The notes beneath the pieces were generated by a model that made no database searches, was not told the DNA's origin, and saw only the letters and a list, made by a program, of their open reading frames with translations. Position numbers and translations under genes: made by a program. From Hyalella azteca (Eukaryota > Arthropoda > Malacostraca > Amphipoda > Hyalellidae), in NCBI RefSeq assembly GCF_000764305.2, contig NW_025947367.1, forward strand, positions 146,086-210,085: a DNA stretch of 64,000 nt, given 5' to 3'. Of the stretch, positions 7,206 to 57,572 are shown one piece after another. The number at the start of each line of letters is the position of its first letter. Position 1 is the stretch's first letter.

Positions 7206-7209
7206 TTAA

Positions 7210-9644: not shown

Positions 9645-9714
9645 ATTGGAGATTGGTCATGAGACCAGCCATGAGTCTGGGCCGTAAGTTTGCCCAAGAC
9701 GTGCTAGGTTTCTA
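9645..9714. repeat. 70-bp dispersed repeat, copy 2
   Basis: Second copy of the repeat at 5729-5798. It is followed directly by sequence homologous to the end of the TA-flanked element, so it marks the right edge of an insertion. Confidence 0.7.
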
Positions 9715-9869
9715 ATATTCCATACTAACTTACTACAATAGCCCTTGCAAAGCCCTTAACAAGACCAAGAGCGAAGAGCCCATACTTGTTGATGATATGT
9801 TTCATGGAGAAGTTTTTAGCAAAAAAATGCTCAAAACCATCTCTTATTAGTTATTACCCCATTTGACGG

Positions 9870-10862: not shown

Positions 10863-10920
10863 ATGGATTATCACAGCGATGATTCATCAGACCCAGAAAC
10901 ACCAGAAGGATTTAAATCCG
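10863..10920 (+). CDS. trio: trio exon 1 (start codon)
   Basis: The ATG has G at -3 and G at +4. It encodes 19 residues (MDYHSDD...GFKS) and ends in phase 1 before GTATGA. Joined to exon 2 it gives GFKSGCGKRVESLRAVDV, which lines up with the residues preceding the SEC14 domain in vertebrate Trio (FRSGFRKN...). Alternative upstream starts are possible. Confidence 0.85.
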
Positions 10921-13900: not shown

Positions 13901-16900
13901 ATTTTTGTCATTTGTAAGAGTTTTCTCATTTTAAATTTATTTCTGGTTAAAAAAGTCCTCATGTATGATTTTTCCTCATGAAATTTATATTTTCTTAGCT
14001 TACCGTATTAGGTATTTGAGAGCAAATGGCTTCAAACCTTTTAGTTATTGTTAATTTCTTGCTTCAAACATTTTACTTATTAATTATTTCTTGCTTTCTG
14101 AAGTTTGATTTAGGAGAGCCTGACTTTTCAAGTGTTTTTACGAGTTTTTACCCCATATTGTTTAGAAATAAAAAATGTAAAAAATAATTAGATTCATTAT
14201 TTGGACCAAAGGGAAAACAACACATCAGCAAGCTTCAAAAAGTGTATATGTTTACATAAACCATTCTCTTTTTAAAATTCGTTTCAATTATGAACCCCTT
14301 ATTGGCATTAACATTATAATTAATTCATTAATTAATTATAATGTTAAATAATTAATTAATTATAATAATTATAATTAATTAATTAATTAAATATAGTAAT
14401 AAATTTCTCTGAGCAGCTGGAGAGTGTGCGGCATGAGGTGGTCAACACGGACCTGGCAGAAGATGTTAGTTTAGCCAAGGCAGCCGTGGAGAAACACAAG
14501 CAGCTGCAGCTGCGGCTCACTAGTCCTGCCATTCGGGACCTCCACACTATGGGACATAGGCTTTTGCAGAGGTAAGTCTGCATTGAAAGCTTATTCGGTT
14601 TTGAAGCGGTAAATTTGTATTGAAAGGTTATTCGGTTTTACAGAGGTAAATTTGTATTGAAAGGGTATTTGGTTTTGCAAAGGTAAATCTGTATTTAATG
14701 TAGTATTTGAATAAATGAATGCCTGGTCTAGAGTCTGACCTGAGGTCGCCACGCACTCCAATTCTAAATATTTGTATTATCTTAGGACAAAATATTTTTA
14801 TGATATTTTATCTCTATCTTTAATATCTTGAAGATATATTTGAATAAATCAAGGAAGTCATCGTGTATGACCAGTCTATAGCTTCAACAGGTCTTTAGGT
14901 TTGACATGCAGTAGGTGCGCACACCAATTCTAAATATTCCTATTGTCTAAGAACAGGATATGTTTAAGAAAGTAAAATTAAAGCTATCAATTAGAGTCCT
15001 AAAAATTTTGTTATAAGACCTATTACAGCTCAGCTTTTGTAGTCCATAATATCCAGTGGTCCTTTCTTATGTTGTTGTGTGTGATGAGCTGTCACATGAA
15101 CAAAATTTTTATAGATGTTGATATTTTGCAGAGTTTGTGTGATGAATAAGTTTGCCTGTTATTGTGGAGTCTGCAAGAAATATCTTTGAAGAAAATTCAA
15201 GTAGAAAATCATTCAGCCTGATTTGTTTCTTATTGAAGTCTAAATAATTTTTTGAAAAACTGATTTTTTTCAAAACATTGAAGTGGTCACTTCCTCTTCA
15301 TCTTCGACAAGTAGCCATTCAAATGATGAATTTAAAATAATCACGCTCAATATTACGAGATTCAAAGAAGTTTTTTCTATGCAGGCATACTTGGAGTCAC
15401 ATAATTCATCATATATTGAATAACTATTGATTGTATTGAACAGGCTGCAGTGCGATGAGAGTGTCAGCAGCAGTGGCGGCTACGATAGTGGCTACTCGGG
15501 CCGAGACAGCTCATCGTCTCTCATTCTGGCCAATCCTGATCTGCAGGCCTGCGTGCCCAGTGTGAGTTGCACTCTCTTTGTATAGCAAAAACTTGCAGAC
15601 CTTGCCTGATCTGCAGGCCTGCGTGCCCAGTGTGAGTTGCACTCTCTTTGTATAGCAATAACTTGCAGACCTTGCCTGATATGCAGGCCTGCGTGCCCAG
15701 TGTGAGTGTTGCCCACATTGTATAGGAAAGACTCGTGCAGATTTGGCCTGATCTGCAGGCCGGCGTGCCCAGTGTGAGTTGCTCTCTCTTTGTATAACTA
15801 AGACTCCTGCAGACCTCTGCAGCACAGACTTCTATAGCACAGACTTCTGCAGACCTATAAACTCATGTGATGTCAATGTAAGATTATTTCTCTTCTTGCC
15901 CCTGAGAGTCACCATGCTAATTGCGTTTATATTGCAGATCATGAGGAGCCTATCGAGCGTGGAGACGTGCGTGGCTCGCGTGCAACAGTCCTGGATGAGC
16001 AAGAAACATCGCCTCGAGCAGTGCCTGCAGCTTAGGATGCTCGAGCAGGACGTCGAGAAGGTTTGGGGCTGTTCTGTCATAAATGTTTAAGAGTTCGTAA
16101 CTCTTTAAGGTCAATCACTGATGGTTTTTCAAGCTTAACCAATTAATGACGGACAAGAAATGTGCCAATACGTGTAGTACTTAGGCTGCTACTTGTACTT
16201 AAACAAGTTTTCTGAGTCCAGCCTCTAGTCTCTACAGACAGTTGGTCTCCATAAAACCCTTCAAGTAACACGTTATGACGTTCACTATAGAACAATACTT
16301 ATCGTGAGAACGCAATCGTCCATGTTTTGTCTAATTGCTACTAATTGGCTCATGCATATTTGCTTCTCCTTGCATCAGAAATACAATTTTTGTGCGATTA
16401 TATTCATTTTACTGTTCCCCTAAGGAGTGTTTATGAGCGGTTTTGAGCTTATATTATATACCTATTTCAATCTCCATTGAAAAAATATTTATGTAAAATC
16501 CTGACCGGCTGTATCTCTTAAGCTTTGTGTGTCAAATTTCTGGCACACCAATGCATCGGAATGGCTGTGCTTACCTACAAATAATTACGATTGCATTACT
16601 GATAACTTGCTTGGTGAATAACTGTTCTCTAGCAGGTGTTGATTGTCTGAACGACATAAATGCCAACTTTCATCATTAATTATCCTACTGATGAACGACA
16701 TTAATACCAACTCATTAATTATCCTACTGACGCAGATGTTTGACTGGCTCTACCACAATGCTTCAGACTGGCTGGGCTTACAAATAATTACAATTGCATT
16801 ACTGATAACTTGCTTGGTGAATAACTGTTCTCTAGCAGGTGTTGATTGTCCGAACGACATTAATACCAACGCATTAATTATCCCACTGACGCAGATGTTT

Positions 16901-19900
16901 GACTGGCTCTACCACAATAGAGAAGAATTCCTCGTGAGCTACGTCGAGATCGGCCACACCTGCCACATGGCCAAGCATCTCCAGGAGTCACACTCGCAGT
17001 TCACTGTCGCGTGTCAGGTGAATATTACCGCCTGCCTGGTAACTAATACCGCCTGCCAGGCCAGGATTACTGCCTGCCAGGTAACTAATACCACCTGCCA
17101 GGCCAGGATTACTGCCTGCCAGGTAACTAATACCGCCTGCCAGGCCAGGATTACTGCCTGCCAGGTAACTAATGCCGCCTTCCTGGCTAGGTAGTATTGC
17201 CACCTTGCAGGTAATTATTACCGCCTGCCAGGCAAGTGTTACTGCCTGCCTGGCAAGTATTACCGTCTTTCAAGCAACTACCGGTATTAGTACCACCTTT
17301 CATGTAAGTATTACCACCTTCCGGCAAGCATTACCGCCTTGCAGGCAATTATCACGATTAGCCTTATGTAGGTACCCAAATTATCAATAACTTATTTTTC
17401 TGATTGCTTGATTTGTTTTAAGTGTTCATGATTTTGTGCAGAAAGTGTACCTGAATCTGAACAAGATCCTAAGTGTTGCACATCACCTCATCGAGTCTAA
17501 CCACTACGCTGCCCAACACATAGCAACGCTGGCCACTAAACTTGATCAGGTGAGCATTACAGTCAAATAAACATTCCAATTTTGCATATTGTATGCCATG
17601 GTACAGGGAAAATTTTAATATACGTTGGTTTACTCCCACAATTTTTACTGGCACATAAAGCACAATTATTAAGTTCATATAAATAAAAGTAAATAGGAGT
17701 TGAAGTTAAAATTTAGGTTTAAATAAGGACTAAGTTACTCAATTTAAGTAGGGACTCTTATTCACTTTAGTAATGCTTATGTATTTCTGTATGGCAGGTG
17801 TGGAAGGAGTTTGCTGCTGGTCTTGATGAACGGTCTTCAGTGTTGGCTCTCAGCGTCATGTTCCATCAGAAGGCTGAACAGGTGCGGGTCAAGACAAATA
17901 TTTACCTTCAATCATCGACGCAGTCTTTATAGTTTTGAGGGAAAATTGTGAATTTATGCTTTCAAACTACAATACTTTTTTGTCTATTAACTAGGTGATT
18001 TCTTCCAAATTGTGGCTTATTTATGGATGAATCTTTTGAACTACCAATCTATCAAGTAAAGAAATATGGTTTAACTCTGTTCTAACTATGTTCTACCTCT
18101 GTTCTACCTCAATTCTAACTATGTTCTACCTCTGTTCTACCTCAATTCTAACTATGTTCTACCTCTGTTCTATCTCAATTCTACCTCTTGAGTCCTCATG
18201 GTTGTTCTGCCCCGACAGTACATTGAGTCGGTGTCGGGCTGGCTGGAGTCTTGTTCTGTGTCGGGTCTCAGCAACGACATCCGCACACTTGAAACCAACA
18301 TACATCTGCACCAGCAGCTGTATGAGACCATGTGTCAGGCGTACACTGAGGTGAGACCCCAGCAGCTGNCAGCTGTACCATAATGTACCACATACCGTGC
18401 AGGTGCACAGCACCAGCTGTACCATAATGTACCACATACCGTGCAGGTGCACAGCACCAGCTGTACCATAATGTATAATATACCGTGCAGGTGCACATCA
18501 CCAGCTGTACCGTAATGTTCCCCATACCGTGCAGGTGCACAGCACCAGCTGTACCATAATGTATAATATACCGTGCAGGTGCACAGCACCAGCTGTACCG
18601 TAATGTTCCCCATACCGTGCAGGTGCACAGCACCAGCTGTACCATAATGTACCCCATACCGTGCAGGTGCACAGCACCAGCAAGAAGCTGCTGTACCAGC
18701 TGGATCACCTGGTCCAGATATGCAGCCAGCTGCGGCGTGACACGCCACTGCGCGCCAAACACGTGAGTTATGTTACTATTTGTGACCAGTGTTATACAAC
18801 ACTTTATTTTACATTGAAATAAATGATAAAAATATTCCGTGACCAGTTTTATCCAATGCTTTATATTACATTAGAATAAATGATAAAAATATTCAGTGAC
18901 CAGTGTTATACAACACTTTATTTTACATTGAAATAAATGATAAAAATATTTCGTGACCAGTGTTATCCAATACTTTATATTACATTAAAATAAATGATAA
19001 AAATATTCCGTGACCAGTGATATACAATAACTCATATTACATTAAAATAAATGATAAAAATATTCCGTGACCAGTGATATCCAATAATTCATATTACATT
19101 AAAATAAATGAAAAAAATATGGGTCATCTCGACACTTTTCGTGTTGTTGTGAACAATGTTATCTGATAATTGATATGAATGTTATTTAAAAATCGGCATT
19201 TAATCACGACAGTTTGCGTCATGTAATCAGTGTTATCCGATAACATATAGCAATAAAGGATAAACCTCAGTGTCGTCATGACAGTTTTACTGTTCATCGT
19301 TGTTATCTGATCGTGGATAGCAATAAAATTTTAACTATATAAATCGCCATGATATTTTGGATATTGTCATGAAAAGTGTTACCTGAAAACAGATAACAAG
19401 CATTATTACTATTATTATTACCTGATAACAGATAACAATACAAATACAGGCGATAATATGAGAAAAAAATTTATAAATTTTCGATGTGGCATCTCAAAAA
19501 TTCCGATGGGTGATAGTGCCAAAGTCTTCGGCTCCTTTGTTCTGTATAAAAATCCAGATATGTAAAGTTATTCATGTGTATTTACTCATAAACATTTGTA
19601 CCTTCATTAATGCTGTTAATTTTTTCCCATCTGTGCCTCTTGTTTCTCTTAATAATTTTGATTTTTAAAATTTTTCAGAAGAAACCTCGTGGCAAGCCAT
19701 CAGCTTATTCGGTAAGATACAAAACAATAAAAAAATATTGGAATTTAATTATTTATGAAATAAATTTCTGCATTTCAGTCCAGGCAATTTTGACTAGAAA
19801 GAGAAGTGATTCATTTTTTCCTGCTCCTCATTTATCTGTGTAAGTACTTATTGAGGTTACATATTTATCTCTTCATGAATATATATAGCTTTTATTGCCA

Positions 19901-22900
19901 GTATTGTGTATAAATTCTAGAAAAACTGTTCACTAGCCCTCGCAATTTATACATGAATATCAAGAAAATTCTATATTACTTAATGCTTTCAAGTTGAATA
20001 ATTTTTCTGTTGGTTATTTTAGGAGTTTGAATGAACCTCCTGTGGTGTTTACGAGCTTGACACCAATTATTTTTTAATAAGGTTAACATTAGACAAGCAA
20101 GTCGCCATTGTAAGCCTAACGTTGACGTTAGACAAGCATGTCACTATTTTTAATTATTACATAACGTAATCAGTTTACAAGATTGTCCCCATGACAATTT
20201 ACCCCGACGCTACGGTAGATTCCTTCGACCATTTTTTCACAACGTTAACATTTGACAAGCTCGTCATCATATTTAGTACCACGTTAACATTTGACAAGCT
20301 CGTCTTCATATTTAGTACCACGTTAACATTTGACAAGCTCGTCTTCATATTTAGTATAACGTTAACATATGACAAGCTCGTCATCATATTTAGTATATGG
20401 TTAATATTTGACAAGCTCGTCATCATATTTTAGTATAAGGTTAACATTTGACAAGTTTATCACTATGGCAGGTGACCCCGGACGGTAAGGTGGTCTACAG
20501 AGGGTCTCAGCAACAGCCCCAGCCTGGCAGCGGCTCAGGGTCTTCCTCAGCGTCCACGTCAACGAGCTCCACCCCGCAGCCTGGTGGGCATTTGCTCTAA
20601 TTATGCTGCTCATAACTAGCTATTATGAGGCTTACTTTATTTAGAAATCATTATTAAGCATGGATTATTTGCAAGAAAATCAAATTAAAAGACCGTTTTT
20701 TATCATTCATCTTTTTATAATTAAGTATAATCACAAACAAAATATTGACAGGTAAAGGGAAGGGCGGCGTGGCTGTGGGGAGCCCTGCGAGCGACTACAG
20801 CGAGGGCGCGTCTCACGTGTTGGCCGTGATACACGAGATACTGGCGCACCACCGCGCCGTGGAGCAGCGCTGGACTGACAAGAAGCACCAGCTGCACCAG
20901 CGCCTGGCACTCAGACTCTTCCAGGAGGACGTCAAGCAGGTGCGTGATACGTAGGATACGTGCCGTGATACACGAGATACTGGCGCACCACCGCGCCGTA
21001 GAGCAGCGCTGGACTGACAAGAAGCACCAGCTGCACCAGCGCCTGGCACTCAGGCTCTTCCAGGAGGACGTCAAGCAGGTGCGTGATACGTAGGATACGT
21101 GCCGTGATACACGAGATACTGGCGCACCACCGCGCCGTCGAGCAGCGCTGGACTGACAAGAAGCACCAGCTGCACCAGCGCCTGGCACTCAGGCTCTTCC
21201 AGGAGGATGTCAAGCAGGTGCGTGATACGTAGGATACGTGCCGTGACACACGAGATACGTGGCATGTGGGATACGCGGCATATGTAGGATACGTGGCATG
21301 ACACGTAGGATATGTGGCATGTGGGATACACGGCATACGTAGGATACGTGGCATGACACGTAGGATACGAGGATGCCAAACAGGTGCGTAACACGTGGAC
21401 TGCTGATGTTCACTGTTCGCAGTGATGAAGATAGCATACAAGAAATTTATGTGTGCAAGTAATGGACTGTAGTGCAGGTAATGGCCAGACTGTAGTGCAG
21501 GTAATGGCCTGGACTGTAGTGGAGATATTGGATATTAAGAGGACCTTATCGGTCCAAAATCGACAGATTTGGCTTTTCCGGTTTTTAGTCTCATCTTAAA
21601 GCTGACATTCTGAGCTATCCAACGGTACCAAAACCATCTCTGTACGTTGATTTATGCTTTCAGGACAGATCCCGCAAGGGAGGGGGTTGGGGGAGTTCTT
21701 TCATATATAACATGGGGAATAATTCCCGTAGTGCACTATAAATAGCTAGTCTACAGACACACAGATCCAGTAACCTTGCTGCAGTCGTACGGGGTGGGTC
21801 TCGCGCCGTCGCTCGCACCATCCTTGACAGAACTTGAGCTCCTGTAACGTCAAGTCTCGCATCCCTGCCATCTTGAATGCCGATTTTAAGGCGCCCGGGA
21901 CTTTGTTGCGCTGTCCTGAACATTCACACTTCTTGTGATGAGATATACACCACTACATTCACACTACAGCGATGAGATATACACCATTCGATCCGCTTTT
22001 AAAATATCTAGAGATTGTCGGGCCACTTTTTTAGATTTCGTTATAGTTTTGAAAATATTTTGAAAAGGGGGGGGGGAAATATTGGTATATTTCGAAAAAT
22101 TATTTTTTTCAGAAAAATCGTCATAAAAAGAGAACCAAGAAAAAAATTGAAAAAGTGGCCCGAGAATCGCTAGATATGGTCTTTACGCATCGAATGACAC
22201 GTGTCTCGATGTTGTAGCATGTGATTTGCAACAGTTAAAACTTTTTTTGAGTACCCCCTTTTTTGGCCGTTTTCTATGAATTTCACGTTTTCTTTCAATT
22301 TTTCGAATATTTTACACAAACAAAATAGTCTTAGAATTCTTTTATACATATGTATACCAAGTTTGGAGACGATCCTTCCATAAATATAGAAAATAGATTT
22401 TGACCGATAAGGTCCCCTTAATGGACTGTGCAGGTAATGGCCTGGACTGTAGTGCAGGTAATGGCCTGGACTGTAGTGCAGATAATGGATATTAATGGAC
22501 TGTGCAGGTAATGGACTGGCTGGCGACGCACGGCGAAGTCTTCCTCTGCAAGAACCCCGGCGTGGGCCGCTGCCTTGCCAAGGCGCGCATGTACCAGAAG
22601 AGCCACGAGCACTTCGAGATGGTCGCGCAGGTGGGACATCAGCATGAACATTAGCGTGAACATGTCCACTAACACCAGCACTAGTACTAGCACCAACGTA
22701 CGCTGGCACAATAGCACTATCTTGACAAACACTAGCACCAAGACTATCTATAGCACCAACGTATGCTGACACAAAAGCACTACCATATCGTGACCAGCAC
22801 AAGAACTGCAATGCTCTCATTATGTTAATTAGCATTAATTTTCCGTTAGTTCATAGCATGTGAACAAATGCAAATTCAACGCAGGACCGCGTACTATTTA

Positions 22901-25900
22901 ATAGAATTATTTAAAACGCTATTTTTTAAACGTAATATTTGGGTGAAATTATTTAAACCTATACTCTGTGTGAACTGTATTATTAATTGAAAATTTTCAA
23001 CGTTTATATCAAGTAGAACCATACTTTTTGATTAAAGTTATGTAAACCTTTATTTCAGGTTGAACTCTTAACATTTATCGTAATTAAGACAATATGTAGT
23101 ATTTATTTCACGTTGAACCTTCAACCTAAGTTTCTCCATAATTTCATACAGAATACGCGCGCAAAACTTTATTTACATTTGAACTTTTGCTCCTAAACAC
23201 CATAATTGCATGAAATTATTTTAACATTTATTATTATAATTAAGATATAACCGACAACCTAAATGCTTTGTAATCTTGTGAAAATATTTCAATGTTTATT
23301 TCAAGTTGAACCATCAACCTAAGTCCATAATGTCATACTGAACACGCAAGCTAACTATTTATTTCAATTTTAACTTTTGTCCTAAACATCATAATCGCGT
23401 GAAATTTTACCATTTATTTGATGTTTACTTAAATGCTTTGTAATCTCGTGTGATTATTTCAATGTTTATTACAAGTTAAACCTTCAACCTAAGTCCACCA
23501 TGATGTCATACAGAACACGCACGCTAACTAATTATTTCCAGTTGCAATTTTGGTGCTAAACACCACAATGCCGTGAAATTATTTCACCATTCATTTGACG
23601 TTTAACTGGCACCCTAAATGCATTGTAATCTTGTGTGATTATTTCAATGTTTATTTCACGTTGAACTTTAAACCCAAGTCCATCGTAATGTCATACAGAA
23701 CATGTACACAAACGCGGAGAAGCTGCTACATTTATTTGACGTTTAACCGGCAACCTAAATGCTTTGTAATCTCGTGTGGTTATTTCAATGTTTATTTCAA
23801 ATTAATATAATTAATGTAATTAATCACCGTAATGTCATACAGAACACGTACACCAACGCGGAGAAGCTGCTGCAGGCGGCGGAGGAGCTGGCCCACACTG
23901 GGGAGTGTAACCCGCAGGAGATCTACAACGTGGCCCAGCAGCTCGACAGCCACATCAGCTCCTTCGTCGCCAGGGTGCACCAACGTCGCCAGCTCCTCCA
24001 ACTCGCCGTCTTCTTTTATAACCATGAGGCCGAGGTGATGCTTTCATTTATATGAGTGTTATAACCATGAGGCCGAGGTCACGCTAATTATTTTTGTTAT
24101 AACCATAAGGCCGAGGTCACGCTAATTATTTTTGTTATAACCATAAGGCCGAGGTCACGCTAATTATTTTTGTTATAACCATGAGGCCGAGGTCAGCAGC
24201 TTAGGTATCCTGCAGCAGCTTAGGTATCCTGCAGCAGCTTAGGTATCCTTCAACATCTTGACAGAGTTAGGACGAACTCGTAACTATTTTTGAAAGCAAT
24301 GTTCTATGTACAAAAGTTTTGAACGGTTTGGTCATTCCCTGCCTAGTTTGCTCATGTTTTTCTAGCACTCAATTGTTAGGCTTTTATGAGAACTTTAATG
24401 ACGACGCGATGGATTGCTCTTCTCGTTGAATATTCATATTTGCTAAAATTTCTTTTACTTCACTCCCTGTATTAACATCAATTGCCCCTCAGAGCGATGA
24501 TTGTATCAATGTTGACTCGTTACTATCATAGTAATGTTGCCCTCAGAGCAATGGGTGTAACGGAAGACAGCGGGTGCGGTTCGGACTTCAGTGGCAGGGG
24601 TGGAGGATTTATTATTTTAATTTAATATTATTAATCTTTACCTGTTAATATTATATACCTGCTAATAATGTTGCCCCTCAGAGCGATGGGTGTAACGGAG
24701 GACAGCGGGTGCGGCTCAGTGGCAGGGGTGGAGGAGGCGCTGGACAGGCTCGCCAAAGAACAGGTCGCCATCCAGAACGTCTGGACCGCCCGCAGGATAA
24801 AGCTGGATCTCCTGCACCAGCTCAGGCTCTTCCAGCGGCATGCTCATCAGGTGGGTGCTAATTAACCCATTAGTGTGTACTGTTTAATCCATTGCCAGTT
24901 AACGGTCCCTTAATTCACCCGTTATCTCCTAATCACTTAATCTGCCCACTATCTTCTATAAGACCATTAATCACTCGTCTCCCGGAATTTTCTGACCTCC
25001 AGTTAATCCTGTAACCCCATTAATCCCTTTACCCCCTGTAATGCATTAATCCCCCATCATTAATCTCTTTATCCACAGTAATCCCTTTACCCCCATTAAT
25101 CCCTTTACCCCCATTAATCCCTGTACCCCCTGTAATCCATTAATCTCTCATCATTGATCCCTTTATCCATAGTAATACAGTAATCCCTTTACCCCCATTA
25201 ATCCCTGTACCCCCAGTAATCCATTAATCTCCCATCATTGATACCTTTATCCATAGTAATACAGTAATCCCGTTACCCCCATTAATTAATCCCTGTACCC
25301 CCAGTAATCCATTAATCCTCCGTGCAGGTGCTGGAGTCTGTGGAGGAATGGACGCGCGACGCTGCGGTGTGCAGCGGCGGCAACAGCAGCAGCAGCAGCG
25401 GCAGCGGTGCAGCTGCTGCTGCTGCAGATGTGTTGGATGGACTGCAGCAGCACGAAGCTGAGCAGCTGCTGCTGCTGCACAACGAGAACATGGCGGCTGT
25501 GCAGCAGGAGGCGCTGCAGGCTCTCAGACGAGGGCACGAGATCATGCAGGTGCTGTTGACAATACATTTTTTCTCATGTAAAATGTATTCTGTGTATTTT
25601 TTTCTCATTTTTTCATGTTGAGCGTCAAATGTGTTAACATGAAGTGTCAACATAAACTAAATGTGTCGACAAGAACCAAATTACATTGTCGAATATAAAT
25701 AAAATTGTGCATATAATGCTCAAATGCACATTTTTTATGTTCAGTGTCAAATGTGTTGACATGAAGATAAATGTCAAAATAAACTAACTAATGTGTCCAC
25801 AAGAACCAAATTAAATTGTCGACATAAAATAAAATTGTGCATATGATGCTCAAATATGTACACTTTATATGTTGAGCGTCAAATGCGTTAACATGAGGAT

Positions 25901-52900: not shown

Positions 52901-54032
52901 TCGGTCAAGTTCATTTATATTTAAATATTTTAAAAAATGAACTTCGCTCACTGAGATTACCCCTATTTCCTGTTGTATAAAAAAGCTGATTCCGTGCACT
53001 GATTCGGCAAACTGACTGCCGATTCCAAATAGAATCATAAATTCAGCGATTTCGGCACGACTTAAGCATCAAATAATTTCAGCAAAATTTGTAGGTTTTT
53101 TCAATATGAAGTCGTTTATTAGAAGATGTATTTCAAGTGCTCAAAATTGTATTTAGTAAATTATTTACAATTTATGAATTAGAATGTTTTAATCATATTG
53201 ACTATAGGAAAGTTTGCTGCTGTGCAGATTTTCTCGAATGAAGCCTGCGTTCCAAAGGCTCGTAGATATAAAACGAATAAATTTACATTTATCATCAAAA
53301 TAACTCTATTTGTGATTTTTGCCTTCAATTTTGCCGAGCGATGTTTACGCGAGAATTGTTGAATTATTTTTTATTCAGATTTTGTTCCTTTCATGGCTCG
53401 TGCCTTACACCTTATCATGTTTCATGCACAATATTGATCGTTATCCTTCTTCTATATTTATTATCGATGAAATCTTATTTCATCATCGTAATTCCACCTC
53501 TAGTTATCGTGAACATCGTAGCTCCTCTAAACATGTTGAACGTTTCTGGTGCATGTAGGCTATTTAGCGTTACTCCATATTATTTTTGATGTATAATATT
53601 AAATTTTTATGTATATTATTCTATTTTTATGTAAAATGTTATATTTTTATGTATAATATATACAATTTTCATGTAGAATATTTTATTAATAATGTAAAAT
53701 ATTATATTTGTATGTATAATGGACAATTTTCATGTATAATATTCTATGTTTAATGTATAATTTTTAGTTTTAATGCATAAAATTCTATTTTTTATGTATA
53801 ATATTCCATTTTTAAGGTAAAATATTTAATTTTTGTGTATTATATTCTATTTTTTGTATAATATATTATTTTTAATGTATAATATTGTGTATATTGCAGA
53901 TGGCTGCCGCCGCAGCTGCGCAAGCTAAGTCACCCCGGCCGCAGCAGCAGCAGCGCTGGCCCCACACAGCAGCAGCAGCAGCAGCGACCGCAGCAACAAG
54001 GATACTCGCACGCATCCCGCTCTCTGTCTAAG
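10863..54032 (+). CDS. trio: Trio/Kalirin-family Rho guanine-nucleotide exchange factor (partial, 27 exons)
   Basis: Orthologue of Trio/Kalirin/UNC-73, a large cytoplasmic scaffold whose GEF1 (DH-PH) unit loads Rac/RhoG with GTP and steers axon guidance, cell migration and actin remodelling. Domain order as read from the exons: short N-terminus, SEC14/CRAL-TRIO (about residues 25-185), spectrin repeats (about 190 onward through exon 24), DH then PH (29858-30790), SH3 (exon 25) and the basic linker motif found before GEF2 in vertebrate homologues (exons 26-27). All donors are GT and acceptors AG. Phases join throughout, except between exons 17 (ends phase 0) and 18 (needs two preceding bases), where an exon is absent. 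The resolved coding length is 6352 nt, about 2117 residues. The GEF2, Ig and kinase parts would lie 3' of the window. Insertions relative to vertebrates: a Gly/Ser linker in the rod (exons 20-21) and two insertions inside the SH3. Similarity is recalled, not computed. Confidence 0.96.
10921..12310 (+). other. Intron 1
   Basis: About 1.4 kb with no recognised element. It contains an 85-codon ORF at 11185-11442 without recognisable similarity, judged spurious. Confidence 0.6.
12311..12503 (+). CDS. trio: trio exon 2 (SEC14 domain, first part)
   Basis: Enters phase 1, exits phase 2. Encodes the LSGGRDPRGGPLLTFPA segment, the hallmark start of the Trio SEC14/CRAL-TRIO lipid-binding domain. Acceptor TTTCATACAG, donor GTGAAA. 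Confidence 0.95.
12857..13049 (+). CDS. trio: trio exon 3 (SEC14 core)
   Basis: Enters phase 2, exits phase 0 at GAG before GTAAGC. Encodes GFTVIVDMRGSTW and IIKPDNFWQKQRT, both almost invariant in Trio and Kalirin. Confidence 0.97.
13643..13801 (+). CDS. trio: trio exon 4 (SEC14 end)
   Basis: 159 nt, phase 0 to 0. Encodes the VDPTQLTVDFDGSLPYDHN segment and the start of the first spectrin-like helix. Donor GTTTGT. Confidence 0.95.
13802..14416 (+). other. Intron 4 with palindromic AT tract
   Basis: 615 bp. The last 80 bp (14310-14395) is an ATTAATTA-rich, partly palindromic low-complexity tract. An imperfect (TA)n tract lies in intron 3 near 13207-13226. Confidence 0.6.
14417..14571 (+). 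CDS. trio: trio exon 5 (spectrin repeat 1)
   Basis: Phase 0 to 2. Encodes a heptad-like helix (LESVRHEVV...HRLLQR) matching the first spectrin repeat. The strong donor GTAAGT is followed by degenerate repeats of a TTCGGTTTTGCAGAGGTAAA-like motif (14593-14690), small copies of the exon tail plus donor. Confidence 0.92.
14572..15443 (+). other. Intron 5
   Basis: 872 bp. The first 120 bp holds degenerate copies of the donor motif. The rest is unique AT-rich sequence, with a diffuse duplicate around 14708-14960 (a GCGC/CACACCAATTCTAAATATT motif appears twice). Confidence 0.55.
15444..15561 (+). CDS. trio: trio exon 6
   Basis: Phase 2 to 0. Encodes a Ser/Gly/Tyr-rich loop (SSSGGYDSGYSGRDSSSS) then LILANPDLQACVPS. 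The donor GTGAGT follows CCCAGT. The last 25 coding bases and the donor are repeated three more times downstream. Confidence 0.9.
15537..15830 (+). repeat. 70-bp tandem repeat of exon 6 tail plus donor, four copies
   Basis: The GCGTGCCCAG block recurs at 15551, 15621, 15691 and 15763, each followed by TGTGAGT. Each copy therefore carries an intact GT donor. Copy 1 is the functional exon end. Use of a later donor would add intronic sequence to the mRNA. Confidence 0.9.
15938..16060 (+). CDS. trio: trio exon 7 (spectrin repeat)
   Basis: 123 nt, phase 0 to 0. Encodes SWMSKKHRLEQCLQLRMLEQ, matching the conserved WHVRKLKLDQCFQLRLFEQ helix of vertebrate Trio. Donor GTTTGG. Confidence 0.96.
16548..16918 (+). 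repeat. About 205-bp duplication of intron end plus head of exon 8
   Basis: The segment from about 16562 to 16760 recurs at about 16769-16918, including TTACTGATAACTTGCTTGG, a CTGACGCAG acceptor and the first 24 coding bases of exon 8 (ATGTTTGACTGGCTCTACCA). The upstream copy is a truncated pseudo-exon. Confidence 0.88.
16895..17017 (+). CDS. trio: trio exon 8 (spectrin repeat)
   Basis: 123 nt, phase 0 to 0. Encodes MFDWLYHNREEFLVSYVEIG, matching MFDWITHNKGLFLNSYTEIG of vertebrate Trio. It is the downstream of two copies of the acceptor region. Donor GTGAAT. Confidence 0.96.
17018..17350 (+). repeat. 42-bp minisatellite after the exon 8 donor
   Basis: Units of the form CAGGTAACTAATACCGCCTG followed by CCAGGCCAGGATTACTGCCT, about four regular copies then decayed ones. 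Each unit contains a CAG/GTAACT donor-like motif. ORFs on both strands here are by-products of the repeat. Confidence 0.88.
17442..17549 (+). CDS. trio: trio exon 9 (spectrin repeat)
   Basis: 108 nt, phase 0 to 0. Encodes VYLNLNKILSVAHHLIESNH, matching VYVNINRIMSVANRLVESGH. Donor GTGAGC. Confidence 0.96.
17798..17881 (+). CDS. trio: trio exon 10 (spectrin repeat)
   Basis: 84 nt, phase 0 to 0. Encodes VWKEFAAGLDERSSVLALSV then MFHQKAEQ, matching EWKAFAAALDERSTLL...FHQKAE. Donor GTGCGG. Confidence 0.96.
18060..18190 (+). repeat. 33-bp minisatellite just upstream of exon 11
   Basis: About four copies of a unit containing TCTGTTCTACCTCAATTCTA. It forms much of the pyrimidine-rich region before the exon 11 acceptor. 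Confidence 0.85.
18219..18350 (+). CDS. trio: trio exon 11 (spectrin repeat)
   Basis: 132 nt, phase 0 to 0. Encodes YIESVSGWLESCSVSGLSND and IHLHQQLYETMCQAYTE, matching the HHHQ-IYEHITLAYSE helix. Donor GTGAGA. Confidence 0.95.
18366..18682 (+). repeat. Tandem copies of the exon 12 acceptor and exon head
   Basis: A unit of about 57-58 bp containing ACCGTGCAGGTGCACAGCAC and CAGCTGTACCATAATGT occurs six times in the intron, followed by the functional copy, whose AG is at 18665-18666. Every copy preserves GTGCAG/GTGCACA. An N at 18369 marks an assembly join inside the array. The overlapping ORFs of 97-164 codons on the minus strand are artefacts of the repeat. Confidence 0.92.
18667..18762 (+). 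CDS. trio: trio exon 12
   Basis: 96 nt, phase 0 to 0. Encodes VHSTSKKLLYQLDHLVQICS and QLRRDTPLRAKH, the position of the SQDGKSLLDKLQRPL segment in vertebrates. Donor GTGAGT. Confidence 0.92.
18782..19118 (+). repeat. 58-bp minisatellite after exon 12
   Basis: Six copies of a unit starting GTGACCAGTGTTATACAACA and ending AAATGATAAAAATATTC, beginning about 20 bp after the donor. Confidence 0.9.
19119..19678 (+). other. Rest of intron 12
   Basis: Continues with degenerate GTTATCTGATAAC-type repeats to about 19450. The rest is AT-rich, ending in the pyrimidine tract of exon 13. Confidence 0.55.
19679..19711 (+). CDS. trio: trio micro-exon 13
   Basis: 33 nt, phase 0 to 0, encoding KKPRGKPSAYS between a strong TTTTTCAG acceptor and GTAAGA donor. 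It can be skipped without changing frame, so it may be alternatively spliced. No homologous segment is recalled in vertebrates. Confidence 0.65.
20220..20455 (+). repeat. 49-bp minisatellite just upstream of exon 14
   Basis: About five to six copies containing GTTAACATTTGACAAGCTCG and TCATCATATTTAGTA, running almost into the exon 14 acceptor. ORFs on both strands come from the array. Confidence 0.9.
20472..20583 (+). CDS. trio: trio exon 14 (Ser/Gln linker)
   Basis: 112 nt, phase 0 to 1. Encodes VTPDGKVVYRGSQQQPQPGS then a Ser/Thr/Gly run. Probably a flexible insert between spectrin repeats. Donor GTGGGC. Confidence 0.85.
20752..20939 (+). CDS. trio: trio exon 15 (spectrin repeat)
   Basis: 188 nt, phase 1 to 0. 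Encodes ASHVLAVIHEILAHHRAVEQ and KKHQLHQRLALRLFQEDVKQ, matching VHHVLDVIHEVLHHQRQLE and RKVRLHQRLQLCVFQQDVQQ. Donor GTGCGT. The 3' 117 coding bases are tandemly triplicated downstream. Confidence 0.97.
20823..21230 (+). repeat. 139-bp tandem triplication of exon 15 3' part plus donor
   Basis: GCCGTGATACACGAGATACT recurs at 20823, 20962 and 21101, a spacing of exactly 139 bp. Copies differ by only a few bases. Reading through the first donor meets an in-frame TAG within 15 bases (GTGCGTGATACGTAG), so only the first donor keeps the frame. Confidence 0.95.
21231..21375 (+). repeat. Short GATACGTGGCAT minisatellite
   Basis: Imperfect repeats of ACGTAGGATACGTGGCATGA, seeded from the intron part of the 139-bp unit. 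Minus-strand ORFs here are repeat artefacts. Confidence 0.8.
21460..22510 (+). repeat. Array of exon 16 acceptor copies, interrupted by a transposon
   Basis: GTAGTGCAGGTAATGG-type units occur at 21470-21510 and again at 22425-22510. The last unit carries the functional acceptor of exon 16. The two halves are separated by the TTAA-flanked element. Confidence 0.87.
21539..22417. mobile_element. TTAA-flanked inverted-repeat element, member 2
   Basis: TTAA lies at 21535-21538 and 22418-22421. Terminal repeats are GAGGACCTTATCGGTCCAAA at the left and the reverse complement of GATTTTGACCGATAAGGTCC at the right. The element is 879 bp without a transposase ORF. It shares TTTTCTATGAATTTCACG and a GGTCTTTACGCATCGAATG-type motif with the element at 7210-8982. 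Confidence 0.88.
22508..22630 (+). CDS. trio: trio exon 16 (spectrin repeat)
   Basis: 123 nt, phase 0 to 0. Encodes VMDWLATHGEVFLCKNPGVG and KSHEHFEMVAQ, matching VLDWIENHGEAFLSKHTGVG and RHEDFEEVAQ. Donor GTGGGA. Confidence 0.97.
22640..22790 (+). repeat. Low-complexity ACTAGCACCAAC repeats
   Basis: Degenerate repeats of AACACTAGCACCAA type just after the exon 16 donor. Confidence 0.7.
22960..23842 (+). repeat. Degenerate tandem copies of the exon 17 acceptor region
   Basis: Units of about 150-200 bp contain TATTTCAATGTTTATTTCAAG, then CCTAAGTCCA, then a GTCATACAG acceptor followed by an AACACG-like exon head. They occur near 23145, 23335, 23505, 23690 and at the functional site 23843. The 23690 copy still reads GAACATGTACACAAACGCGG and GAGAAGCTGCT. 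Older copies have lost the coding head. Confidence 0.85.
23843..24034 (+). CDS. trio: trio exon 17 (spectrin repeat)
   Basis: 192 nt, phase 0 to 0. Encodes NTYTNAEKLLQAAEELAHTG and ECNPQEIYNVAQQL, almost identical to the vertebrate NTYTNADKLLEAAEQLAQTG and ECDPEEIY. Donor GTGATG. Confidence 0.98.
24016..24250 (+). repeat. Tandem copies of exon 17 tail plus donor
   Basis: TATAACCATGAGGCCGAGGT recurs at about 24016, 24060, 24096, 24135 and 24174 (the middle copies with ATAAGG), each with GAG/GT. A short CAGCAGCTTAGGTATCCTG repeat follows (24195-24250). Confidence 0.92.
24251..24681 (+). other. Intron 17 with pseudo-acceptors; expected spectrin exon absent
   Basis: It holds two decayed copies of the exon 18 acceptor and head: CCCCTCAGAGCGATG near 24485, and a longer one at 24538-24607 including GTGTAACGGAAGACAGCGGG. 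No exon for the VKELWTWLEEL-type half repeat expected here is visible in any plus frame. Confidence 0.75.
24682..24850 (+). CDS. trio: trio exon 18 (spectrin repeat)
   Basis: 169 nt, entering in phase 2 and ending phase 0. Encodes VEEALDRLAKEQVAIQNVWT and ARRIKLDLLHQLRLFQRHAH, matching IETVLQQLDEAQSQMEELFQ and ERKIKLELFLQLRIFERDA. Its phase does not match exon 17. Donor GTGGGT. Confidence 0.93.
24920..25325 (+). repeat. Degenerate TAATCCCTTTACCCCC array upstream of exon 19
   Basis: Units of about 18 bp (CATTAATCCCTTTACCCC), sometimes in higher-order groups, run into the exon 19 acceptor (AATCCTCCGTGCAG). The array supplies the pyrimidine tract. Confidence 0.88.
25328..25549 (+). CDS. trio: trio exon 19 (spectrin repeat with Ser/Ala insert)
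   Basis: 222 nt, phase 0 to 0. Encodes VLESVEEWTRDAAVCSGG, then a Ser/Gly/Ala run of about 20 residues, then LQQHEAEQLLLLHNENMAAV and LRRGHEIMQ. It corresponds to the repeat with RLQHHADKALTMNNLTFDVI. The low-complexity run falls in the inter-helix loop. Confidence 0.93.
25610..26070 (+). repeat. About 125-bp tandem repeat after exon 19
   Basis: Four diverged units containing TTGAGCGTCAAATGTGTTAA, AACATAAACTAA, ATGTGTCGACAAGAACC and AATTGTGCATATGATGCTCA. Confidence 0.88.
26318..26528 (+). CDS. trio: trio exon 20 (acidic and Gly/Ser linker)
   Basis: 211 nt, phase 0 to 1. Starts LLKTSGLELECDDSSDGEDD (vertebrate: VQASGVELLCDRD), then becomes Thr/Ala/Gly/Ser-rich. Donor GTACGA. The insert has no vertebrate counterpart that I recall. 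Confidence 0.88.
26747..27024 (+). CDS. trio: trio exon 21 (Gly-rich linker then spectrin helix)
   Basis: 278 nt, phase 1 to 0. A Gly/Ser/Thr-rich stretch of about 60 residues is followed by LVELLHAAQLRLDAVALEKQ, matching LLEFLHEKQQELDLAAEQHR. Donor GTGCTT. Confidence 0.9.
27005..27190 (+). repeat. Two to three copies of exon 21 tail plus donor region
   Basis: AACAAGCTTGAGCAGGT is followed about 80 bp later by AACAAGCTCGAGCAGGT, then by a decayed AACAAGGTCGTGCTGGT. They are separated by a TATTATATATTATGTTGTCA spacer. Confidence 0.87.
27191..27573 (+). other. Rest of intron 21
   Basis: AT-rich. A short GACTGATATCGACTGATGAT repeat lies at 27440-27490. No other element recognised. Confidence 0.55.
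27574..27720 (+). CDS. trio: trio exon 22 (spectrin repeat)
   Basis: 147 nt, phase 0 to 0. Encodes VQRWIHSGDAMLLASFSVPN and EAHAMSQDHQQFQ, matching VLGWIRNGESMLNAGLITAS and EQLQREHEQFQ. Donor GTCACT. Confidence 0.95.
27721..28425 (+). other. Intron 22
   Basis: 705 bp. The last 250 bp holds about three imperfect units of TTTATTTATTTATTTTTATT followed by a GTGTTCGGGGCTGG-like block. Nothing coding recognised. Confidence 0.6.
28426..28571 (+). CDS. trio: trio exon 23 (spectrin repeat)
   Basis: 146 nt, phase 0 to 2. Encodes VAIEKTHAAVVQLRERAAQL and VAKNWENLVTCAEDR, matching HAIEKTHQSALQVQQKAEAM and VASHWQQLMLKMEDR. Donor GTGTGG. Confidence 0.96.
28534..28795 (+). repeat. 89-bp tandem repeat of exon 23 tail plus donor, three copies
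   Basis: AAGAACTGGGAGAAYCTGGT starts at 28534, 28623 and 28712, exactly 89 bp apart. Each copy continues through GAGGACAGGTGTGGTCA (donor) and a GATGGTGATGATAATAGTGA spacer. Confidence 0.95.
28805..29003 (+). repeat. About 80-bp tandem repeat of exon 24 acceptor plus head, three copies
   Basis: CTCCGCAGACATAAACTAGT, CTCCACAGACACAAACTTGT and CTCCGCAGACACAAACTAGT occur at about 28819, 28900 and 28980, with an AAAAACTAATTTCTTRGC spacer. The last copy is the functional splice site. Confidence 0.94.
28987..31180 (+). CDS. trio: trio exon 24 (last spectrin repeats, DH and PH of GEF1)
   Basis: A 2194-nt exon, phase 2 to 0. Counting from the GTG codon at 28997: spectrin helices at 1-235 (ASIAFYKTAEQVCSVLESLE, TLDQCAQYVELE, GEKYLESHTS), then the DH domain at about 288-462 (KKELIMKELLDTERTYVKDL, YLIKPVQRITKYQLLLREL), then PH at about 475-597 (LILQ-like start, RERHVFLFEHHVVFCKEVKE, CKFALWGG, KQIWVRKLRQV). 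A Ser/Ala/Lys-rich tail follows. All recalled GEF1 contact motifs of the DH fold look intact, so exchange activity on Rac/RhoG is expected. The PH beta-strand loop has a Ser/Gly insert (about 517-533). Donor GTGAGT. The alternative reading to the TAG a few codons past the donor is intronic. Confidence 0.98.
31198..31325 (+). repeat. 19-bp minisatellite immediately after exon 24
   Basis: About six to seven copies of GTGGTACCTCTACACTACA, starting 17 bp past the donor. Confidence 0.93.
32570..32725 (+). repeat. 39-bp minisatellite, four copies
   Basis: Units start GAGACAAACATACGCTGCTG at 32570, 32609, 32648 and 32687. Confidence 0.93.
34590..34745 (+). repeat. CACTCGTCACTTGT-type short tandem repeats
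   Basis: Imperfect 10-11-bp units of GTCACTCGTCAC with many variants (TTGT, ACGT, CCAT). Confidence 0.85.
34842..35045 (+). repeat. 35-bp minisatellite, about six copies
   Basis: Units contain AATATCTGCCATATTGTCTC and TGGCATGACTGCCGC (period 35; for example 34864 and 34899). Minus-strand ORFs of 60-159 codons here are repeat artefacts. Confidence 0.93.
35815..37092 (+). CDS. 425-codon ORF, candidate alternative first exon of trio
   Basis: The ORF starts with three closely spaced ATGs after an in-frame TAA at 35806-35808 and has no recognised domain. It is Ser/Asn-rich, with basic stretches (SLIRTLSLRVLRTI, FSKLFLRRMASKN), and is probably largely disordered. A good donor (TTG/GTGAGA) at 37026/37027 ends codon 404 in phase 0. 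Exon 25 starts in phase 0, so splicing would fuse this N-terminus to the SH3 and later GEF2 part. Vertebrate Kalirin and Trio are known to use internal promoters for short isoforms, which makes this reading natural. Alternatives: an unrelated nested gene ending at the stop 37090-37092, or a recently dead coding copy. A chance ORF of this length is very unlikely in 60% AT DNA. Confidence 0.55.
   Translation: MNLMTMEFNANKKSKSTVSRTSKFTAKSDSETMISVNVNEINEKHCAIRSNSCPPPAGVVTKALHGLLLRQTNLETNAWTGVKTCSYSAMNHDECLDPPQYLSPVQPESSILTRAESSLSANLKLLAGEKKESKSLIRTLSLRVLRTINNEKPNASVDNKTLTFFPPKIGVSHSIQVDTKPGFSKLFLRRMASKNINGSSTACESRNKLLVSSASSCYSTKTNSECCPLACDISPSDCITTGSCKLDVEEVPFQNFLDVLRFPPFQYPFHTCENSEMHLSSWTRHSSEKFSSKAVATSKVSEAKKIDTMKSIIFNLNDSEVVIEASVNEGLDLECTGSKRAECLSEIRSVFPNKEDKNCHANNEDVHRNDILVLGNNGSCVSAANSRHSLIHTLCQSADVTTSLVRRGYSALCIIIHNTYYYLSY
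37093..38013 (+). other. Intron 24, last part
   Basis: AT-rich, no repeats of note. Ends in TTTTTTCGATGTGCAG, the acceptor of exon 25. Confidence 0.6.
38014..38614 (+). CDS. trio: trio exon 25 (SH3 domain with two large insertions)
   Basis: 601 nt, phase 0 to 1. Residues 7-35 give the first SH3 strands and RT loop (CAIVVEDFTA, GELSVSRGQYLELLD). Residues 118-126 (DPTEWAFAR) give the Trp-containing strand. Residues 179-188 (EEGYVPLSVL) give the Gly-x-x-Pro end. Between them lie a Ser/Asn/Lys insertion of about 80 residues (n-Src loop) and one of about 50 (distal loop). In vertebrate Trio these strands are nearly adjacent. The frame is open throughout and I see no good intron boundaries inside, so the inserts are probably translated. 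Donor GTGAGT. Confidence 0.9.
38122..38345 (+). repeat. Coding Ser-codon minisatellite within the SH3 exon
   Basis: Imperfect 12- to 24-bp repeats of AACATATCTTCCAAATCAAC type encode SNISSKS units. The minus strand carries a mirror acidic ORF (37995-38345), which I regard as a shadow. Confidence 0.8.
40166..40262. mobile_element. Piggy-like terminal fragment (TTAA end)
   Basis: Ends GGCGGTAGAGGGTTAA. The reverse complement reads TTAACCCTCTACCGCCG and continues through TCTCCGGGAACAT to CCTGAGGACGTTTGTAC, shared with 45757-45850. Termini of TTAA-CCCT form resemble piggyBac-type elements. The other end was not found. Confidence 0.65.
40857..41135 (+). repeat. CACCAGCTACTGGGCCTGCAG array
   Basis: Two higher-order units of about 120 bp, made of CAGCTGCTGGGCCTGCAGAA and ACACCAGCAGCTAAGCCTGC subunits, followed by GCACCAGCTGGCACCATCA short repeats. 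Confidence 0.88.
41630..42420 (+). repeat. About 170-bp degenerate tandem repeat, four to five copies
   Basis: Units share CACGGTCACAAAGCTACTT, GTGGCATCTGCGAGCTTGT, AAATTGTGTATTTTTGGA and CGTTCTATGGTTTACT. Confidence 0.85.
42935..43878 (+). repeat. 44-bp minisatellite, about 21 copies
   Basis: The period-44 unit contains TATTGCATCACACTCTACCC then TTCCATYWCATCACACTATT. ORFs up to 312 codons on the plus strand are open only because the unit lacks stops. The protein is a tandem HHTLPFHYITLFLYC-type repeat without features of a real protein. Confidence 0.95.
45757..46054. mobile_element. Short TTAA-flanked piggyBac-like MITE
   Basis: The left end is TTAACCCTCTACTGACGTAC; the right end is GGCGGTAGAGGTTAA near 46040-46054. 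It shares its left 95 bp with 40166-40262 in inverse orientation. No ORF, so non-autonomous. The right boundary is inferred. Confidence 0.62.
46394..46525 (+). repeat. 35-bp minisatellite, four copies
   Basis: The unit contains ACCGCAGCGTCCACAGCCCC and GAGTTGACTGACAAT. It ends 340 bp before exon 26. Confidence 0.93.
46861..46921 (+). CDS. trio: trio exon 26 (linker)
   Basis: 61 nt, phase 1 to 2. Encodes CGAGAAGSSSPVAKRKPFN, matching the conserved SSPGPKR...NTL motif after the first SH3 of Trio/Kalirin. Acceptor CCTATTTCAG, donor GTCAGA. The phase agrees with exon 25 and exon 27. Confidence 0.85.
47047..47320 (+). repeat. 16-bp CAGCTGCTACACGCTA minisatellite
   Basis: About 16 copies, some lengthened by CCGGTA. 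It ends in CTACACAG followed by GC-rich, open sequence (47321-47395). Confidence 0.94.
47395..47960 (+). repeat. Decayed AACCCTTCCTCT array
   Basis: Units such as CTCTAACCCTCAACCCTTCC decay gradually downstream. It is not the telomeric hexamer. Confidence 0.85.
48744..48781. repeat. 17-bp perfect hairpin with 4-base loop
   Basis: CAACGTTGATACCTGCA, loop CAAC, then the exact reverse complement. It could form a cruciform or mark a miniature palindromic element. Confidence 0.88.
48880..49040 (+). repeat. About 36-bp GTACAAAAGTTACC repeats
   Basis: Four diverged units containing AATGTACAAAAGTTAC and GTTTGGACGT. Confidence 0.85.
52530..52700 (+). repeat. GAGTTAGTGCTCGAATGTGTGA repeats
   Basis: Four to five imperfect units of about 30-35 bp, ending in GAATATGTGAG. 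Confidence 0.82.
53585..53890 (+). repeat. TTTTTATGTATAATATTC array abutting exon 27
   Basis: About 16 imperfect units of 18-20 bp run up to 10 bp before the exon 27 acceptor. Confidence 0.88.
53900..54032 (+). CDS. trio: trio exon 27 (basic linker, poly-Gln)
   Basis: 133 nt, phase 2 to 0. After exon 26 it reads RWLPPQLRKLSHPGRSSSSA, matching the KWLTSPVRRLSSGKA motif of Trio/Kalirin, then a Gln run and YSHASRSLSK. Acceptor ATATTGCAG, donor GTAATA. The poly-Gln is CAG-encoded and may vary in length. Confidence 0.9.
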
Positions 54033-54345
54033 GTAATACAGGGTATTCACTATTCATTCATTTATTTTAAAAGCATGGGTATAATTCACTTATGTTGCTG
54101 TGTTTTTTTAGCAGTAATGATACAGTGTTATGACCTTATATTTCTGTAGGTTCTCTTATTAGTAAAAGATGCGTATCGCGTATCTTATATTACTGTGTGT
54201 TCTCCTATCAGTAATATCGGAGTGCTATGACCTTAAATTTTGTTATTTTATTTCGTATATAAATACCCTTTAATTCGTCTACTTATGATTGGTTTCTTTC
54301 GAACTATAACGTTCTCTGTCTAAGGTATTAACGGGGTATTATTCA
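54021..54345 (+). repeat. Decayed duplicate of exon 27 tail plus donor
   Basis: TCTCTGTCTAAGGTAATACAG at the donor is echoed at about 54312 by TTCTCTGTCTAAGGTATTAA, with similar following sequence (GGGTATTCACTATTCAT against GGGTATTATTCATATTA). Confidence 0.7.
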
Positions 54346-56452: not shown

Positions 56453-57572
56453 TATCTCGCGTCGCAGTGAATATCTCGCGTCGCAGTGAATATCTCGCGT
56501 CGCAGTGAATATCTCGCGTCGCAGTGAATATCTCGCGTCGCAGTGAATATCTCGCGTCGCAGTGAATATCTCGCGTCGCAGTGAATATCTCGCGTCGCAG
56601 TGAATATCTCGCGTCGCAGTGAATATCTCGCGTCGCAGTGAATATCTCGCGTCGCAGTGAATATCTCGCGTCGCAGTGAATATCTCGCGTCGCAGTGAAT
56701 ATCTCGCGTCGCAGTGAATATCTCGCGTCGCAGTGAATATCTCGCGTCGCAGTGAATATCTCGCGTCGCAGTGAATATCTCGCGTCGCAGTGAATATCTC
56801 GCGTCGCAGTGAATATCTCGCGTCGCAGTGAATATCTCGCGTCGCAGTGAATATCTCGCGTCGCAGTGAATATCTCGCGTCGCAGTGAATATCTCGCGTC
56901 GCAGTGAATATCTCGCGTCGCAGTGAATATCTCGCGTCGCAGTGAATATCTCGCGTCGCAGTGAATATCTCGCGTCGCAGTGAATATCTCGCGTCGCAGT
57001 GAATATCTCGCGTCGCAGTGAATATCTCGCGTCGCAGTGAATATCTCGCGTCGCAGTGAATATCTCGCGTCGCAGTGAATATCTCGCGTCGCAGTGAATA
57101 TCTCGCGTCGCAGTGAATATCTCGCGTCGCAGTGAATATCTCGCGTCGCAGTGAATATCTCGCGTCGCAGTGAATATCTCGCGTCGCAGTGAATATCTCG
57201 CGTCGCAGTGAATATCTCGCGTCGCAGTGAATATCTCGCGTCGCAGTGAATATCTCGCGTCGCAGTGAATATCTCGCGTCGCAGTGAATATCTCGCGTCG
57301 CAGTGAATATCTCGCGTCGCAGTGAATATCTCGCGTCGCAGTGAATATCTCGCGTCGCAGTGAATATCTCGCGTCGCAGTGAATATCTCGCGGCGCAGTG
57401 AATATCTCGCACGGCGCAGTGAATATCTCGCGGCGCAGTGAATATCTCGCGCGTCGCAGTGAATATCTCGCGGCGCAGTGAATATCTCGCGGCGCAGTGA
57501 ATATCTCGCGTCGCAGTGAATATCTCGCGGCGCAGTGAATATCTCGCGGCGCAGTCAATATCTCGCGCCGTG
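56453..57572. repeat. 19-bp satellite array, about 59 copies
   Basis: Unit TATCTCGCGTCGCAGTGAA, nearly invariant for over 900 bp. Variants accumulate at the right edge (CGGCGCAG, CGCACGGCG). Minus-strand ORFs of 332 and 412 codons translate it as a 19-residue repeat and are not genes. Confidence 0.97.

Follow-up and report, generated by a model that had tools for sequence, protein, structure and literature searches.

Mirage-like tandem arrays across exon–intron junctions of the trio gene in the amphipod Hyalella azteca

Minisatellite-like tandem duplications spanning exon–intron boundaries, on either the donor or the acceptor side, have been described in amphioxus under the name of "mirages", in Adh3, the globin genes BflGb6 and BflGb9, troponin C and PGBD5, the last two being cited and added, respectively, in PMC3902484 (PMC3087553; PMC3902484). 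In amphioxus, the units measure 10 to about 160 bp and many copies carry AG/GT signals (PMC3087553; PMC3902484), both sides are affected, haplotypes differ in copy number, and splicing was undisturbed according to reverse transcription PCR (PMC3087553). Here, we describe arrays of this kind in the trio gene of the crustacean Hyalella azteca, within a window of 64,000 nucleotides (RefSeq assembly GCF_000764305.2, contig NW_025947367.1, positions 146,086 to 210,085 of the forward strand; the coordinates below are those of the window). Unlike the amphioxus cases, this one belongs to a different phylum, concerns 10 of the 22 introns of one gene, and is known here from DNA sequence alone. The arrays are best explained as intronic minisatellites of the mirage kind, of ordinary birth and tolerated at junctions, an explanation to which we assign a probability of about 0.72. 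A preliminary description of the window had known of no named mechanism for them; the phenomenon itself is already named, and what is new is a dense crustacean case. In the literature found, mirages had been named only in amphioxus, and no report of a crustacean mirage appeared among the matches listed for the phenomenon and for crustacean or amphipod cases, a search whose scope mostly lay outside subscription papers; the term can now be extended to a crustacean.

Several other systems resemble the trio arrays in part. Rogers in 1989 and Gao and Lynch in 2009 reportedly described introns gained when a tandem duplication brings splice signals with it, and introns derived from tandem arrays in human genes are said to have been found by Zhuo and collaborators in 2007. 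In contrast to intron gain, the trio introns probably existed beforehand and were then lengthened. The potato RdRp gene shares with trio a tandem duplication with splice signals across an exon–intron boundary (PMC4974935). In human paralogs, minisatellite units, on average 30 bp long and present four times, also lie at exon–intron boundaries; unlike in trio, these repeats change how recent paralogs are spliced or give rise to new introns in them (PMC2812944). The polyubiquitin gene UBC likewise has tandem AG|GT sites within repeats, but its repeats are coding and its intron is a multiple of the unit (PMC10809524), whereas most trio units are largely intronic and 5 of the 13 duplicated junctions do not have AG|GT. 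Within the crustaceans, a Daphnia survey found units longer than 8 bp to be much less dense in introns than elsewhere (PMC3152781), so the trio gene examined here is not simply typical of the group.

Junction-spanning arrays in trio

The gene body of trio was resolved into 23 exons (E3–E25), mapped by combining tblastn homology with splice motifs (Table 1). Uniform detection, based on ungapped self-matches at offsets of 9 to 499, revealed 31 tandem arrays across the 22 introns; at the threshold used, no repeat pair arose in 132 dinucleotide-preserving shuffles. Twelve of these arrays were scored as straddling a junction, on the basis of 6 or more exonic bases. Among the 19 that were not scored as straddling, the array at the E22 donor does straddle on gapped alignment, where it is plain; it went unscored in the ungapped test because of indels. 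A unit composed of an exon part, a splice site, and an intron part, which is what characterizes a mirage, was found in the 12 arrays plus E22. Repeat units holding both the exon edge and the splice site were present in 10 of the 22 introns (nine by uniform detection, and E22–E23 by gapped alignment), in agreement with the preliminary description, which had counted at least ten trio introns enlarged by tandem repeats that include their junctions. Both intron ends are hit, with 7 donor and 6 acceptor sides duplicated out of 44 (12 by uniform detection and one by gapped alignment).

Since that description gave no exon coordinates, its cases were matched by position and side, its exon numbers being equal to ours minus one. 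In its numbering, the donor cases at exons 6, 15, 17, 21, and 23, the acceptor cases at exons 12, 16, 17, 18, and 24, and the duplication at exon 8 are all present. Its start coordinate, 14561, fits an additional donor array at E6, and a further one was identified at the E9 donor. Only a weak counterpart was found for its donor case at exon 27, namely one copy situated 292 bp away from the edge of a putative exon; it shares 23 of 34 bases and was the best match among 640 scanned positions.

Table 1. Coordinates of trio, its mapped exons, and the arrays or copies at their junctions (window positions)
Feature	Position	Strand	Description
trio	12311-31180	+	SEC14-like part (presumed label), spectrin repeats, RhoGEF-PH
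E3	12311-12503	+	exon
E4	12857-13049	+	exon
E5	13643-13801	+	exon
E6	14417-14571	+	exon
E7	15444-15561	+	exon
E8	15938-16060	+	exon
E9	16895-17017	+	exon
E10	17442-17549	+	exon
E11	17798-17881	+	exon
E12	18219-18350	+	exon
E13	18667-18762	+	exon
E14	19679-19711	+	exon
E15	20472-20583	+	exon
E16	20752-20939	+	exon
E17	22508-22630	+	exon
E18	23843-24034	+	exon
E19	24682-24850	+	exon
E20	25328-25549	+	exon
E21	26318-26528	+	exon
E22	26747-27024	+	exon
E23	27574-27720	+	exon
E24	28426-28571	+	exon
E25	28987-31180	+	exon
E6 donor array	14562-14698	+	37-bp unit, 10 exonic bases, 3 decoy donors
E7 donor array	15535-15813	+	70-bp unit, 27 exonic bases, 3 decoy donors
E9 acceptor duplication	16576-16918	+	junction copy 159 bp upstream, 24 exonic bases
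E9 donor array	17008-17355	+	21/42-bp unit, degenerate, 7 copies, short exonic part
E13 acceptor array	18370-18681	+	44-bp unit, 6 decoy acceptors
E16 donor array	20823-21396	+	139-bp unit, 117 exonic bases
E17 acceptor array	22418-22519	+	24-bp unit
E18 acceptor array	22995-23874	+	copies 144-189 bp apart, decaying upstream; absent from the list of Tandem Repeats Finder (TRF)
E18 donor array	24016-24195	+	38-bp unit, 4 decoy donors
E19 acceptor copies	24482-24735	+	at -135 and -189
E22 donor duplication	27010-27186	+	74-bp unit with indels, 15 exonic bases
E24 donor array	28534-28803	+	89-bp unit, 38 exonic bases
E25 acceptor array	28811-29001	+	80-bp unit, 15 exonic bases
Candidate donor-edge copy (exon 27 of the preliminary description)	54020-54345	+	one copy, putative exon 53900-54033

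The shortest units measure 21 bp and the longest about 200 bp; in most arrays the copies have diverged, with whole-unit similarities of 0.70–0.99. The three decoy donors at E7 are identical to the real donor nonamer. TRF covered 30% of intronic compared with 5% of exonic bases, and the sole place in E3–E25 with a wholly exonic array (26783-26846) has units of 9 and 27 bp, both multiples of three. Along the window, tandem-repeat coverage amounts to 1% in positions 1-14000, 23% over trio, and 22% downstream.

The array at E13 takes up nearly all of the 316-bp E12–E13 intron, which is about 60 bp long once the array is collapsed. Such an intron would be expected if some trio introns were new and the arrays were remains of their birth by tandem duplication, given that a boundary-crossing tandem duplication created an intron in potato RdRp (PMC4974935) and that the same origin has been proposed for the amphioxus globins (PMC3087553). 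We consider this origin very unlikely here, since at least the E24/E25 intron looks old and shared: the open frames P0001, P0002, P0008, and P0012 of four contigs, which are 4 of the 11 proteins read and are presumably unspliced, join Trio at the same acceptor after an unrelated leader, in a comparison that covers E24/E25 only.

Placement of the arrays relative to junctions

The preliminary description had proposed that duplication is anchored at splice junctions. In a word test, 24-base words were scored as having a copy when 18 or more of the 24 bases matched in the adjoining intron. Copies were found for 11 of 44 junction-centred words (25%), compared with 38% of 11589 intron positions and 3% of 3433 exon positions. 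At cut-offs of 17, 18, 19, and 20 of 24 bases, copies existed for 13, 11, 10, and 10 of the 44 junction words and for 43.5, 38.4, 34.2, and 30.0% of intron words, and the order of the word classes was the same at all four cut-offs. This is, for a single gene, the comparison that the description had named as able to refute its proposal, and it speaks against anchoring. Because copy expansion inflates the intron rate, the word test does not suffice as the sole measure, and we therefore added a per-unit placement test, which estimates how frequently one randomly positioned unit would extend across a junction. Compared with the 12 of 31 straddling arrays seen, 5.1 were expected at the present intron lengths (P 0.001), 7.0 with each array's own extra copies removed (P 0.019), and 7.9 with all extra copies removed (P 0.049). 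The excess is thus modest, 1.5- to 2.4-fold, its size varies with the null, and it comes from a single gene.

What remains of the proposal is this per-unit excess. It would be explained if R-loops, stalled transcription, or AG|GT microhomology, for instance, started duplications more often at junctions, which we regard as unlikely. In favor of such a preference, counting E22 gives P values of 0.0003-0.018, and the 22 arrays scoring at least 25 give 0.0001-0.0075. The signal weakens to P 0.004, 0.05, or 0.10, depending on the null, without intron E18–E19 (one variant of the test drops E14, E15, and intron E18–E19). The exonic overhangs are skewed short (Kolmogorov–Smirnov P 0.02) and range from 10 to 117 bp, so the breakpoints keep no fixed distance from the junction. 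In the exon table, AG|GT occurs at 8 of the 13 duplicated junctions, compared with 25 of the 44 junctions overall, and hence is no marker of duplicated junctions. The rate of straddling is close to that of randomly placed units, and the pattern is mostly as expected from random duplications hitting the short introns of a repeat-rich gene. According to this explanation, segments of about 20-200 bp would duplicate in tandem anywhere in trio and then expand, probably through replication slippage or unequal exchange. Because many original introns were short relative to the unit, a duplication would often begin or end within the flanking exon. At a junction it would be tolerated since the extra copies lie in the intron and the exon-joined copy retains a working splice site; duplications within exons would presumably persist only when the frame is kept.

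Decoy splice sites and exonic differences

The arrays hold about 38 decoy splice sites, so the dozens of decoys previously attributed to this one gene are indeed present. The functional site is probably the copy adjoining the exon, as follows from frame and homology. The accompanying statement that distant copies decay holds for part of the arrays. Measured with ungapped words, similarity drops with distance in 4 of the 6 arrays with at least three copies (rho -0.5 to -1; E6, E7, E16, and E18 donor); the E9 donor and E13 arrays show no such drop. In local alignments with trimmed ends, the nearest copy was the most similar in 5 of the 10 arrays with at least two copies (E7, E16, E24, E18 acceptor, and E25), tied in E19, and was not the most similar in E6, E9 donor, E18 donor, and E13. 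The similarity of the E18 acceptor copies declines steadily (0.79, 0.76, 0.73, and 0.71), and in the E13 array the two farthest copies are the most similar.

The splice-site dinucleotides themselves do not decay. GT or AG is intact in 36 of 38 junction copies, compared with 29–30 for random dinucleotide columns of the same arrays (P 0.02–0.04, the copies within one array not being independent). Threshold picking gave 37 copies, 35 of them intact; the number was fixed at 38 for the alignment. Three further positions lie outside this set, namely 21458 (E17, AG lost), 21383 (a partial copy at E16 that retains GT), and 28940 (at E25, where a match within the unit is due to chance and has no AG); adding them brings the tally to 37 intact cores among 41. 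Scored against the authentic donor, the decoys on the donor side come out weaker in 4 of 7 arrays (15 of 22 copies), equal in three (7 copies), and never stronger, on a score matrix that was built from trio's own donors and favors authentic sites. An in-frame, stop-free extension of the exon would result from only 5 of the 38 decoys, all of them at E9.

The retention of cores could indicate that the copies are used, through alternative splicing that yields isoforms or through stepwise, recursive removal at dual-specific AG|GT sites, and AG|GT sites can indeed act both ways in human genes (PMC10809524). The scarcity of open in-frame decoys and the undisturbed splicing at amphioxus mirages (PMC3087553) make such use most improbable. 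Stepwise use of AG|GT was discarded as a general explanation, as the duplicated junctions at the E7 donor and at the E9, E18, E19, and E25 acceptors lack AG|GT.

A possible sign of selection on the exonic part of the units was seen at E16, where each of three 139-bp copies codes for an identical stretch of 39 residues and the 3 differing sites are all third codon positions, i.e., synonymous. Across the 13 arrays, third codon positions account for 18 of the 28 exonic sites at which copies depart from the authentic one (P 0.0007) and for 10 of the 18 sites differing among decoys (P 0.04). This test was devised after E16 had been seen, and far copies that aligned poorly were excluded from it at E18 (3 of 4) and E19 (1 of 2). 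The predominance of third-position differences suggests that selection on the exon-adjacent copy shapes the arrays, perhaps together with copy turnover. Part of the bias must stem from the authentic copy, which changes only synonymously; what is left of it hints that copies alternate next to the exon, under selection, as unequal exchange would allow.

The near-identity of the E16 copies also bears on whether the arrays are assembly artefacts, with haplotypes or repeat reads misplaced in tandem. Other signs in that direction are single N characters at 18369 (the start of the E13 array) and 56452 (the start of another array), which suggest assembly joins at repeats, an exon missing between E18 and E19, and one amphioxus mirage that was wrongly assembled in the genome draft (PMC3087553). 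Array copy numbers may consequently be wrong, given the N at two array starts and the missing exon. As an account of the arrays as a whole, an artefact is quite unlikely: most arrays are diverged, with units of very different lengths, which is not the product of a haplotype misjoin, and amphioxus mirages are of the same kind, two of them backed by trace or re-sequencing data (PMC3087553; PMC3902484).

If the arrays are tolerated minisatellites, as we favor, purifying selection would act on the copy next to the exon, whichever that is. If copies turned over through this position, most differences in the exon parts could remain synonymous and most copies could keep GT/AG, with decoy donors drifting weaker, chiefly at +3 and +5.

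Several points weigh against this explanation. The modest straddling excess persists, with P values of 0.0001 to 0.10 over the test variants, and leaves room for some preference for junctions. The differing sites in E7, E13, E17, and the E18 donor array are all first or second positions, and the third-position bias could come partly from synonymous change in the authentic copy alone, or from haplotypes placed in tandem by the assembler, which would give the same sign in E16. In addition, duplication and turnover are deduced from one assembled sequence and not observed directly. It is also conceivable, though doubtful, that in this crustacean lineage junctions are true hotspots of minisatellite birth and that every copy rotates through the functional slot by unequal exchange, with selection keeping the array working. 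If this were true, trio would possess a self-renewing reserve of splice sites, and its introns could lengthen fast without breaking the gene. The density of arrays in trio would make junction attraction, the choice of the spliceosome among near-identical sites, and a step toward new introns testable. Annotation is concerned as well, since gene models can be misled by decoy sites and by exon tails that are nearly identical.

Gene model and other features of the window

The trio region matched the Pfam models RhoGEF, PH, and Spectrin, together with a part that we take to be SEC14-like. In PDB, E25 aligned with DH-PH structures solved for Trio (triple functional domain protein), and the exons upstream of it match insect, tick, and vertebrate Trio/kalirin proteins by tblastn. 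Among the best 120 of 956 matching proteins, the only named crustacean, Armadillidium vulgare, was 68% identical across 62% of the query. The named insects were less similar (46-59%), and two further contigs reached 83-86%. The open frame, read with the exon-adjacent splice sites, was checked in two blocks, split at a frame break between E18 and E19, and contained no stops in either (710 codons in E3–E18 and 1122 codons in E19–E25). E14 and E15 were called from splice motifs and frame only, without homology, and were used in the placement tests. In 24035-24681, no match was found for residues 182-231 of P0004, a stretch of about 50 residues in the spectrin region; with the frame break, this indicates that an exon is either absent from the assembly or unrecognisable at this place. 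E25 extends beyond the end of the DH domain, where the frames P0001, P0002, P0008, and P0012 leave the Trio sequence or stop, a difference that may reflect either an intron lost here or one gained there.

Regarding the rest of the window, a 222-residue open frame on the minus strand (1196-1864) corresponds to a group XII secretory phospholipase A2 (Pfam PLA2G12), with 10 further matches at 40-52% identity. Downstream of trio, a 427-residue open frame at 35809-37092 had no Pfam match. It is followed by a frame at 37993-38646 that weakly matched kalirin in tblastn, directly behind the DH-PH part of that protein, and that contains a 27-bp in-frame array at 38174-38252; we read this frame as a putative SH3 domain, without a match in Pfam. 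Finally, a 1.1-kb array with a 19-bp unit, 98% alike, is located at 56453-57567.

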